From Algibacter sp. L1A34 (GTDB lineage Bacteria; Bacteroidota; Bacteroidia; Flavobacteriales; Flavobacteriaceae), in assembly GCF_009796805.1 (NCBI RefSeq), contig NZ_CP047029.1:1353501-1417500 (forward strand): a DNA stretch of 64,000 nucleotides, read 5' to 3'. Below the pieces are notes generated by a model that was not told the DNA's origin, ran no database searches, and was given only the letters and a program-made list of their open reading frames with translations. Of this stretch, positions 1 through 7,178 are shown one piece after another; positions within the stretch are counted from its first letter, which is position 1; every line of letters begins with the position of its first letter. Both the position numbers and the translations under genes were made by a program.

Positions 1-1137
1 TGTGCTAAAATGGATTAATACTTTACAAATCAATAGCTTGAAAATTATAAAGCATAATTACCGTTTAGGTTATTAACAATTAACAATTATGTGTATTAAA
101 ATATTCATTAGTTGTTAATAAGTGTTCATTAGTTTGTAAAAGAAAAACATTGAATATCCAATAATTTTCACAATCAATAACATTTAGGTAACATGCAAAT
201 AAGTTAATGTAAATTTTTGGTTAAGTTATTAGCATCAAAAAGGGTACTTCTTAGATTTGTTAATAGCTTTAGTTATTAAAAATTGTTGTTAATATAGGTT
301 ATTAACAATTGTTAATAGTGTTTTTAAAAACCTTTAAATTAAATGAGTTAGAGTGTTTAAAGCTGTTCATTTGTTATCAACAACATTCAATAAAATACAA
401 ATCAAAATAAAGCTTGAAAAAGTTATACCGCTATTCACAAGCTATAATAAGCACCATTTATTTTTTTAAATTTAAAAGAAAAACTGATTATATATATATA
501 TATGTGGATAACTCTAAAATTTAAGGAAAATTAAATTTTTTATAAAACGAATTGTGAATAGTAAAACTCACTTTGTTTTAAATAAATTTTAGTTTCTAAA
601 TTCGTTTAACCTTTTTCAATTTAAAATAATTTAGTCTATAAATAAAAGTTTGTTAATAAGATAGATTAACTATTAAAGGTGTTGAATTCTTTTTATTTAG
701 TTTTATTAAAATAAGGGTTGTATTAGAAAGTTTATTATTAAATATCTATATATCAAATAATTAATGTTTTTTTAAGATTAAAATTCACTAAAAATTAGAA
801 ATAAATTTAGCCCATTTATCTTCGGGCATGTATCTTATAAAAATGAAAGGTGATTATAAAACAGTGATAAAACGCATTGTAAAGCAATAAATTAAGTATT
901 CAAGTTTAAAATTTAAGCCTGTAGATATTGTTTTTAATTAAATAATATTATGAGGCTTAATTATTTATTAAATTTATGTTTTTAACATTTTGTTTTCAGA
1001 AATTTAACGCTATCAAAATGTCATTTAATATATAAATTGTAGCTTTGTATAAAATAAATAGCGCATCTTCTCTAAAATTACGCTATTAGATAACAGAATT
1101 TCCATTATCTTAGGAAATCAAAATGATTACAAATTAA
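1..1137. other. Gene-free AT-rich tract, origin-like
   Basis: No credible open reading frame is present in about 1.1 kb. The octamer TGTTAATA or its complement occurs seven times: 71-78, 113-120, 258-265, 287-294, 300-307, 310-317 and 651-658. A perfect 16-bp palindrome ATTAACAATTGTTAAT lies at 301-316. A perfect DnaA box (TGTGGATAA, complement TTATCCACA) is at 503-511, directly after an alternating TA run, and a one-mismatch box TTATCAACA is at 374-382. CTATTCACAA at 431-440 and its complement at 552-561 form an inverted pair. AT-richness, a DnaA box beside a TA run and an iterated motif are features of bacterial oriC. No dnaA gene is visible, so this remains an inference. The part after about 700 shows no clear structure. 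Confidence 0.4.
1040..1047 (+). promoter_or_regulatory. Putative -7 promoter element of rnr
   Basis: TAGCTTTG matches the Bacteroidota -7 consensus TAnnTTTG. It lies about 90 nt before the rnr start. No convincing -33 TTG is seen, so support is from one element only. Confidence 0.35.
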
Positions 1138-6059: not shown

Positions 6060-6593
6060 TTAAACACGGTTGCAAACCGAACAATTTGGCTCTCCAGTTA
6101 AATTACCGTTTTTATCTAGGTCGTATTTACAACATGCTTTAAAGTTGTTTTTCAAAATTTCTTTAGATCTTTTTATTCTGACTTTTACATTTTCTAAGCT
6201 TATATCTAGAGTATTTGCAACTTCTTTTTGTTTTAAACCTTTTATATAAACGAGCTCGATAACGTCTCTGTTAATTTTTGGTAAATCGGTTATAAAGCGA
6301 TCAAAACAGCATACATCTTGATATATGTTTTGTGGAGTTTCTTTATTTGTATTTACTTCTTTTACGTAAACAGATTCTTTATTAAAATGGTTTATTATTT
6401 CATTTCTCGCTATCTGAAAAACCCAAGCTTTTACTTTTTCGTTGTTTTTAAGTTTCGTTAGATTTTTATGAATTTTTAAGAATGTATTCTGGAAAATATC
6501 CTTGGTATCGTTTTCGTTTTTTACTTTTTTAAGAATAAAAAAATAAAGCTCGTCATTGAAATTGTTCCATATGTTTTTAGTTTCCATATTCAA
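6060..6593 (-). CDS. sigZ: ECF sigma factor SigZ
   Basis: A 177-residue extracytoplasmic-function sigma factor. Sigma region 2 (about residues 9-75) contains DIFQNTFLKIHKN and the WVFQIARNEIINHF recognition stretch. Region 4 (about 105-155) has the helix-turn-helix KGLKQKEVANTLDIS. The tail is cysteine-rich (ACCKYD ... GEPNCSVCNRV), which is typical of SigZ proteins and could bind metal. No anti-sigma gene is adjacent. Directly upstream on the same strand, 44 nt away, is a tiny cysteine-rich gene, with a 26-bp palindrome between them. A second in-frame ATG two codons downstream could also be the start. SigZ assignment is confident; the inducing signal is unknown. Confidence 0.9.
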   Translation of the reverse strand: MNMETKNIWNNFNDELYFFILKKVKNENDTKDIFQNTFLKIHKNLTKLKNNEKVKAWVFQIARNEIINHFNKESVYVKEVNTNKETPQNIYQDVCCFDRFITDLPKINRDVIELVYIKGLKQKEVANTLDISLENVKVRIKRSKEILKNNFKACCKYDLDKNGNLTGEPNCSVCNRV

Positions 6594-6602
6594 AAATAAA
6601 GA

Positions 6603-6628
6603 AAAGGTTAGTATTAATACTAACCTTT
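6603..6628 (-). terminator. Perfect palindrome, terminator or operator
   Basis: AAAGGTTAGTATT followed by its exact complement gives a 26-bp perfect inverted repeat between the cysteine-rich gene and sigZ. As minus-strand RNA it would fold into a stem with a short TTAA loop, followed by TCTTTATTTTTG, so it could terminate or attenuate the small gene's transcript before sigZ. As DNA it could be an operator. Confidence 0.55.
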
Positions 6629-6637
6629 ATAAAGGGT

Positions 6638-6751
6638 TTAACAACAATTACATTTATTGCATTCGCATGTATTACAAGAGCAATTTTTTTCTAAACAATT
6701 TGTGCAATTGCATTTTGTACAATCGCAATTAGTACATTTACAAGTAGTCAT
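6638..6751 (-). CDS. Small cysteine-rich metallothionein-like protein
   Basis: An unbroken frame of 37 codons, ATG at 6751-6749 to TAA at 6640-6638. It contains 14 cysteines (residues 4, 6, 9, 11, 14, 16, 19, 24, 26, 29, 31, 34, 36, 37), mostly as CxC and CxxC, for example CKCTNCDCTKCNC and CNTCECNKCNCC. The remaining residues are mainly Asn, Lys and Thr. No signal peptide is visible, so it should be cytoplasmic. The pattern is that of a metallothionein or metal-buffering peptide, although I cannot assign it to a named family. Context supports metal handling: sigZ lies downstream on the same strand and a YbjQ-type protein is divergent upstream. The regular spacing of Cys codons with no stop argues strongly that it is real. 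Confidence 0.75.
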   Translation of the reverse strand: MTTCKCTNCDCTKCNCTNCLEKNCSCNTCECNKCNCC

Positions 6752-6878
6752 ATCTTTTAAATTTTATTATTCATTAAGGAGACCTAGAAAAGGTAAAAAA
6801 GATACATTTTTTTTAAATAAATTTAAGAACTTGTAACATTATCGGCTAATTAAACACCAATATAAAAAATACAAGAAT

Positions 6879-7178
6879 ATGATTTTAACAACAACAGACA
6901 CTATAGAAGATCACAATATAAAAAATTATTTAGGCATCGTAACAGGCGTAGATGTAAGTATGCCAAAAACAACGCTTACGTTTAATATGGAAAAATATTA
7001 TGAATCTTACGAGAATAAAATAAATCTAGTTAAAGAAGAGGCATTTCAGAAATTAAAAGATAATGCTAGTAAACTTGGGGCAAATGCAGTTGTTGGTATT
7101 GGCATAGATGTAGAAACTTTACCAAGTTCGGGTATTATTGTGGTTTCTGTTACAGGTACCGCTGTTACTGTGGTTTAG
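6879..7178 (+). CDS. YbjQ family (heavy-metal-binding domain) protein
   Basis: A 99-residue protein matching the YbjQ/UPF0145 family (putative heavy-metal-binding domain): an N-terminal strand MILTTTDTIEDHNIKNYLGIVTG, the ALKDNA-type helix (EAFQKLKDNASKLGANAVVGIGID) and a terminal VSVTGTAVTV strand. The length equals the family norm (about 100-110). It is predicted cytoplasmic. The family forms pentameric rings, and its biochemical role is not established. It is divergent from the cysteine-rich gene across about 127 bp, so the three genes here could form a metal or redox response group. That grouping is inference from position. Confidence 0.85.
   Translation: MILTTTDTIEDHNIKNYLGIVTGVDVSMPKTTLTFNMEKYYESYENKINLVKEEAFQKLKDNASKLGANAVVGIGIDVETLPSSGIIVVSVTGTAVTVV

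Follow-up and report, generated by a model that had tools for sequence, protein, structure and literature searches.

The cysteine-rich reading frame that lies upstream of an ECF sigma factor gene in Algibacter sp. L1A34 raises two questions: whether a gene of 37 codons is real, and what its product would do beside a sigma factor. The window is the whole stretch of DNA analysed here, 64,000 nucleotides of contig NZ_CP047029.1 (positions 1,353,501 to 1,417,500). On its minus strand a promoter-like element, the peptide gene, a terminator-like hairpin, and the sigma gene follow one another in that order (Table 1). A preliminary description had proposed a 37-residue peptide with 14 cysteines, and translation from the ATG at 6751 to a TAA stop yields exactly that (MTTCKCTNCDCTKCNCTNCLEKNCSCNTCECNKCNCC).

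Table 1. Features of the peptide-sigma locus and its divergent neighbour, in window coordinates.
Feature	Position	Strand	Details
YbjQ-type gene	6879..7178	+	PF01906, E 3.8e-21; divergent from peptide operon
ECF-type promoter-like element TGTATCTTTTTT-N11-GTCTCCTT	6776..6806	-	24 nt from peptide ATG
Cysteine-rich peptide gene, metallothionein-like	6638..6751	-	37 aa, 14 Cys, CxC/CxxC; conserved as protein
Terminator-like hairpin: perfect 26-nt inverted repeat, then T-rich tract	6603..6628	-	Between peptide and sigma genes
ECF sigma factor, 175 aa, SigZ-like best match	6060..6587	-	Profile matches; AlphaFold model and Foldseek
Linker Cys94-Cys95 between sigma2 and sigma4	6303..6308	-	Alignment of 32 sigma factors
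C-terminal tail Cys152-Cys153 ... Cys169-x-x-Cys172, presumed metal sensor	6060..6134	-	Alignment of 32 sigma factors

Chance is a poor account of the peptide reading frame, because none of 37,981 ATG-initiated frames of 20-80 residues in 100 first-order Markov surrogates of the window reaches both 8 cysteines and 20% cysteine. Among the 245 such frames in the window itself, the peptide frame alone has at least 8 cysteines and at least 20% cysteine. The highest cysteine fraction among surrogate frames with at least 5 cysteines is 0.21, compared to 0.38 in the peptide. A protein search of 99 genomes returns nine peptide matches in eight genomes, all of the same peptide kind except the weakest (L020). 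Among 20 relatives of the 14-cysteine kind, third codon positions vary in all 34 columns, first positions in 19, and second positions in 17, and TGT and TGC interchange freely at every cysteine. Since third positions vary most and the choice between TGT and TGC is free, selection appears to act on the peptide as a protein, within a grouping that required the cysteine pattern (peptides L048, L057, L075, and L125 fell outside it). In relatives of this kind the spacing of the cysteines is kept across genera, and the non-cysteine residues are constrained as well. A spurious reading frame is ruled out by the surrogates together with the codon-level conservation. The preliminary description had let its claim stand or fall with conservation of the cysteine pattern beside the sigma gene, and the pattern is kept in relatives. 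Judged by sequence, this is a real, conserved, metallothionein-like gene whose product presumably binds metal, and the peptide family recurs in many Bacteroidota.

The likeness to metallothioneins is one of class. The peptide is short, about one-third cysteine arranged in CxC and CxxC, and has hardly any aromatic residues; the composition of 42 peptides is 34.6% cysteine and 17.9% asparagine, with three aromatic residues in total. In size, very high cysteine content, scarcity of aromatics, and CxC and CxxC motifs it resembles the SmtA/BmtA and MymT metallothioneins. The peptide has no match in Pfam, NCBIfam, or the PDB, and a plasmid search returns no peptide match. Nine peptides compared with Pfam at E-values up to 10, a search in which HMMER filters drop weak matches, hit no family, including PF02069, which we take to be the SmtA/BmtA metallothionein family. 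In contrast to SmtA/BmtA and MymT, the peptide family is thus without a profile or PDB match, and its partner is an ECF sigma factor; in the available portions of the sources NmtA is placed under AzuR, a repressor of the SmtB/ArsR family (PMC8790569), and MymT under the repressor RicR (PMC10141476). Among the titles and abstract openings of the open PMC literature, no ECF-controlled metallothionein and no member of this peptide family was found for the Bacteroidota. Because no profile matches, no describing paper was found, and both NmtA and MymT are under repressors, the family and the coupling appear new, and their parts are familiar in type. The locus adds to the Bacteroidota a family of very short metallothionein-like genes unmatched by the Pfam and NCBIfam models tried, in which a metallothionein appears to be coupled not to a repressor but to an ECF sigma factor.

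The sigma factor had been called SigZ. The SigZ models TIGR02959 and NF007215 are its best NCBIfam matches (E 5e-45 and 3.1e-42), and both scores fall below the curated cut-offs (153.7 bits against 212, and 144.3 against 168.65), which leaves SigZ as a best match only. The gap of 44 nt first given between the two genes is obtained only with a TTG start at 6593; because relatives conserve the ATG at 6587 as the sigma start, the gap is 50 nt. The cysteine-rich sigma tail is as described, a CC..CxxC at the C-terminus. In an alignment of 32 sigma factors picked from CC-tailed relatives, for which CC was partly a selection criterion, Cys152, Cys153, and Cys169 are invariant, Cys172 is kept in at least 90%, and Cys94 is nearly invariant. 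The AlphaFold model (pLDDT 80.6, pTM 0.42) renders sigma2 and sigma4 well, together with a short hairpin in the tail; it does not place linker and tail relative to each other (pLDDT is below 50 in linker residues 74-92 and about 53 in the last residues). Foldseek matches the model to ordinary ECF sigma factors, with TM-scores of only 0.30-0.45 over the query. There is no anti-sigma gene among the window neighbours of the sigma gene or among any neighbours common to relatives, and viral contigs yield no relative of the sigma protein.

These features recall CorE and CorE2 of Myxococcus xanthus (ECF238, former ECF44), described in the accessible text of two sources as ECF sigma factors of metal homeostasis with a short cysteine-rich C-terminal extension, linker cysteines, and no linked anti-sigma factor (PMC8999054, PMC3107203). 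According to the same text, both are activated by metal on the C-terminal cysteine-rich domain, and CorE2 responds to cadmium and zinc. The window sigma factor carries the four or more C-terminal cysteines typical of a CorE-like tail (Cys152, 153, 169, and 172). Across this sigma factor and its relatives the linker has CC or one C, not the CXC of former ECF44, and the tail is a CC..CxxC with four cysteines, whereas the tail reported for CorE has six in another order. Nor is a metallothionein partner described for CorE or CorE2 in the accessible text of these sources (PMC8999054, PMC3107203). The 2011 list of 21 CRD sigma factors, as far as that source is available, spans four phyla and includes no Bacteroidota (PMC3107203); matches to the CorE model in Bacteroidota are mentioned in a later source (PMC10141476). 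Cysteine-rich C-terminal extensions and suspected CorE-like regulation are also reported for ECF287 and ECF288 (PMC8999054, in part), which the window sigma factor, with its own extension, resembles by description only. By analogy with CorE and CorE2, a cysteine-tailed ECF sigma factor with linker cysteines and no anti-sigma factor would be activated by metal. The best reading of the window sigma factor is that it is CorE-like in principle, is no member of CorE, and would owe its activity to metal on the cysteine tail.

The linkage of peptide and sigma gene extends well beyond the window. Sigma relatives were taken from the best 80 of at least 451 confirmed matches on genome contigs, from a sample of the phylum (45 of 395 genomes at E <= 1e-25), and from related genomes (11 of 60 at E <= 1e-20, counting the window's own genome). 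Of the 123 loci, 120 were kept, near copies from one genus included; the duplicates L120 and L040 and the truncated L073 were left out. With tail classes defined after the sequences had been seen, a reading frame of at least 9 cysteines lies within 700 bp upstream of the sigma gene in 41 of 42 loci with a GE..CxxC tail, in two of 38 with other CC tails, and in none of 40 without a CC tail. At the forty-second GE..CxxC locus (L051/L312) the peptide lies further upstream on the same contig, behind another reading frame; a cysteine-rich peptide is upstream of the sigma gene in all 42 loci of this tail class. The peptide has 22 matches in 299 genomes of the family, and 20 of them have the sigma gene adjacent (L272 and L278 are solo copies with no adjacent sigma gene). 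The sigma gene is also the only neighbour common to all 24 loci compared (23 named loci and the window), the next cluster being present in 9.

The sigma-linked metal or redox module of the preliminary description survives in part: a conserved metallothionein-like gene is linked to a cysteine-tailed sigma gene, and the YbjQ-type gene drops out. That gene is indeed divergent from the peptide gene, as its PF01906 match bears out, and is a neighbour within the genus only. Of the five main operon loci there, four (L002-L005) have it alongside; L006 and the second copy L013 do not, and it is absent beside the operon in all 42 other loci searched. FUSC was likewise rejected as a part of the module, being seen only in the window and L006.

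Several loci depart from the common arrangement. In one genome of the window's genus the whole operon is present a second time, in diverged form and without the hairpin (L013/L021, G004:C25). Close to the solo peptide copy L272 are genes that, judged by eye, resemble a PIN-type toxin-antitoxin pair. Four loci with other cysteine tails (L133, L134, L136, and L138) have a reading frame of 26-43 residues with 8-13 cysteines downstream of the sigma gene; they form together one side of a branch in the sigma tree (98/86) and may represent a version of the module that was arranged independently. In L075, from a Pirellulaceae MAG, a 64-residue reading frame with 15 cysteines, unlike the Bacteroidota peptides, lies upstream of a CC-tailed sigma gene and has a similar promoter element.

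Of 43 operon loci, 40 carry a loose form of the promoter, its spacing set, no more than 110 nt from the peptide ATG, and in 37 of these 40 its GTC ends 26-30 nt before the ATG; the remaining three loci have promoter variants recognised by eye. The loose expression itself fixes or narrows most motif positions and the spacing. Positions left free are also conserved (T at -1, before the first G; T at 9; T at 28; TGAA at 32-35), and the spacer sequence is not conserved in the 40 loci with the loose form. The strict form occurs once in the window and three times in 723,630 strand-bases of 39 other ECF loci. Because the peptide and sigma genes share this promoter, autoregulation is suggested, with the sigma factor using the promoter of its own operon. 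A hairpin of -9 kcal/mol or lower, differing in sequence, is present in 38 of the 43 operon loci and has a T-rich tail in 32; no RNA family matches at E-values up to 1. The hairpin would probably allow the peptide to be made in excess of the sigma factor, and strong peptide expression with attenuated sigma expression would be the simplest reading of the operon layout.

The same layout lends itself to a leader-peptide explanation, in which ribosome stalling at cysteine codons or a metal-bound nascent chain decides termination at the hairpin, and the peptide is a sensor in cis with no function in trans. Amino-acid attenuators consist of a short reading frame loaded with one amino acid, a terminator hairpin, and then the gene, and the locus has their order of parts: a short frame rich in one amino acid, a terminator-like hairpin (in the 38 loci counted above), and a regulator gene. 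An attenuator of this type is nonetheless distinctly improbable here. It calls for a hairpin after the frame in every locus, and five of the 43 lack one of -9 kcal/mol. The distance from the peptide stop to the sigma ATG ranges from 13 to 137 nt among operon loci, and a whole reading frame intervenes in L051/L312. Conserved cysteine spacing and constrained non-cysteine residues argue against a leader, as do the two solo peptide copies and the cysteine-rich frames of other make-up downstream of the sigma gene in the four loci with other cysteine tails.

The locus is probably an autoregulated two-gene metal-buffering operon, in which a metal-sensing sigma factor drives a metallothionein-like buffer. 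A rise of free Zn2+ or Cd2+ in the cytoplasm, or of a comparable soft metal, would lead to metal binding at Cys94/95 and Cys152/153/169/172 of the sigma factor. The metal-bound factor would change shape in the manner of the CorE type, without an anti-sigma factor, and would use its own promoter (TGTATCTTTTT-N12-GTCT). Transcription would yield many copies of the 37-residue peptide, and the hairpin would limit read-through into the sigma gene by attenuation. The peptide would then chelate the metal and strip the sigma factor of its ligand, and the loop would shut. In a related genus the same promoter also precedes genes for CDF, CzcA/CusA-type, and Zn/Cd-type P1B-ATPase exporters and for DUF3703. 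The reality of the gene, the gene order, the co-occurrence, the conservation of the promoter, and its position before efflux genes elsewhere are read directly from the DNA.

Peptides and sigma factors come in two matched kinds. Peptides with 11 cysteines are paired with a sigma tail that has six residues between GE and CxxC, and with a single linker cysteine, in 19 of 19 loci. Peptides with exactly 14 cysteines are paired with a two-residue tail in 19 of 20 (the twentieth tail is not scored), and 18 of these 19 sigma factors have a CC linker. In the promoter, one base of the -35 region is T in 20 of 20 scored promoters of the 14-cysteine kind and C in 19 of 19 of the 11-cysteine kind, the scoring leaving out three further loci of these kinds. 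Each peptide kind is one side of a branch in the sigma tree (98/80 and 99/91; the bootstrap is not settled). The tree took in 12 of the loci without a CC tail, and sets some of these sigma factors between the two peptide kinds, on long branches that make the placing unsafe. The matched kinds may reflect only shared descent.

The promoter motif leads back to the operon when it is searched for by itself. In 17 genomes with the operon and seven without a sigma match, 22 sites occur at up to one mismatch, compared to six in a reversed control; 12 are exact, and 11 of the 12 are the operon. The seven genomes without a sigma match have no exact site and three one-mismatch sites. A lipoprotein gene follows the twelfth exact site (G080:C2:54813; L159 1501-1530) at a distance of about 150 nt. 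The operon promoter is the only exact motif site in the window's genome and remains the sole site when a longer pattern is allowed one mismatch; at up to two mismatches there are 10 sites and 10 in the control. A candidate second target at 3,497,435, from a shorter pattern with one mismatch, was rejected since it lies inside a gene and the reversed control also gives one site. Over six genomes, up to two mismatches yield 47 sites against 33 in the control, and 13 against 3 in G002, which may carry an extra motif site. On these counts, no further site in the window's genus is clearly above control. Across 397 genomes of the family there are 41 exact sites in 39 genomes, and the reversed pattern has none. 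Twenty-nine of the 41 were classified: 26 precede the peptide, one DUF3703 (G728, just upstream of the operon), one a TonB-type receptor (L191), and one is unclear (L182). A search made without the protein thus finds the operon. The motif seldom precedes sigma genes with other CC tails (it does so in three of the 37 listed, L010, L137, and L138, and in L011 besides), and the promoter may therefore not extend to CC-tailed sigma factors in general. In G644 (L239 1200-3948), a TonB-type receptor gene with an exact motif is convergent to a SigZ-like sigma gene, and no cysteine-rich peptide is noted there.

That the window's genus has no clear promoter site besides the operon, that pairing is near one-to-one, and that peptide and sigma tail come in matched kinds would all fit a peptide that regulates the sigma factor directly, as a thiol-based anti-sigma factor or a metal donor or acceptor docking on the cysteine tail, with bulk buffering secondary. 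Such direct regulation is unlikely: the peptides present no hydrophobic face, given their composition with three aromatic residues among all 42, and the matched kinds are open to the explanation of shared descent. The metal-buffering operon may take a more specific form, which we put forward tentatively, as a possibility that falls somewhat short of probable. In the window's genus it would be a closed one-operon homeostat whose sigma factor serves its own promoter alone and yields, apart from itself, nothing but the metallothionein, which acts as an anti-sigma factor by chelating the activating metal away from the cysteine tail; the two matched kinds would then have arisen by joint diversification of sensor and buffer; in the genus that contains Polaribacter, the promoter would also serve Zn/Cd exporters and DUF3703.

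This last genus (g82) has motif sites at up to one mismatch in 72 of 97 genomes, 121 in all, compared to 22 in the reversed control. They precede the peptide (67), DUF3703 (17), a CDF exporter (16), a TonB-type receptor (6), a Zn/Cd-type P1B ATPase (1), a CzcA/CusA-type RND pump (1), and other genes, none a metal gene (13). The 78 exact sites divide into peptide 60, DUF3703 9, CDF 5, and one each for TonB-type receptor, P1B ATPase, RND pump, and other. A sigma gene is within 1.5 kb of all 67 peptide sites. Sites were assigned to classes by BLAST against a single reference per class (the TonB-type match of L281 is looser, and L301 is a DUF3703 fragment), and profiles confirmed one example each of DUF3703, CDF, HlyD/CusB adaptor, Cd-type ATPase, and CusA/CzcA RND. 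In L171 a CusB-like adaptor gene and a CDF gene flank the motif. These promoter-matched efflux genes of a related genus indirectly strengthen the link of the module to metal. They weigh heavily against sensing of thiol or oxidative stress, with the peptide as a redox buffer and no metal buffer. Cysteine pairs can form disulfides, and structure titles record zinc-bound and oxidised forms of the SigW/RsiW pair; the g82 genes include metal exporters and no recognised thiol or peroxide enzyme, and redox buffering is very unlikely.

Zinc or cadmium is the likeliest metal of the module, as suggested by the g82 exporters. The ATPase scores 502 bits against the cadmium family TIGR01512 (cut-off 313.5), compared to 378 bits against the copper family TIGR01511 (cut-off 397), and the best specific model for the CDF protein is the zinc exporter model ZitB, at 172 bits, below its cut-off of 408. 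In the window's own genome the sole CDF match has no motif (best 7 mismatches), and this assignment of the metal is therefore transferred from another genus. Copper(I), the metal of CorE and mycobacterial MymT, has some points in its favour as the natural metal here: CxC/CxxC peptides bind Cu(I) well, and the RND pump found belongs to the CusA/CzcA family, which does not tell copper from zinc. The CDF family and the Cd-type P1B ATPase in the g82 set make copper doubtful. The promoter motif and the candidate regulon make metal sensing by cysteine-tailed, SigZ-like sigma factors directly testable.

DUF3703, for which no naming paper was found in the open-access literature, gains a context. In several g82 loci (L201, L204, L213, L222, and others), and in L342 from another genus, the peptide promoter is preceded at about 380-390 nt by a DUF3703 gene under the same motif. 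Its placing suggests a metal role for DUF3703. Away from the operon, window positions 1-1137 and L346 have a long AT-rich intergenic stretch, with an rnpA-like gene (by eye) about 6 kb before the window start; the AT-rich stretch at the window start could be a replication origin.
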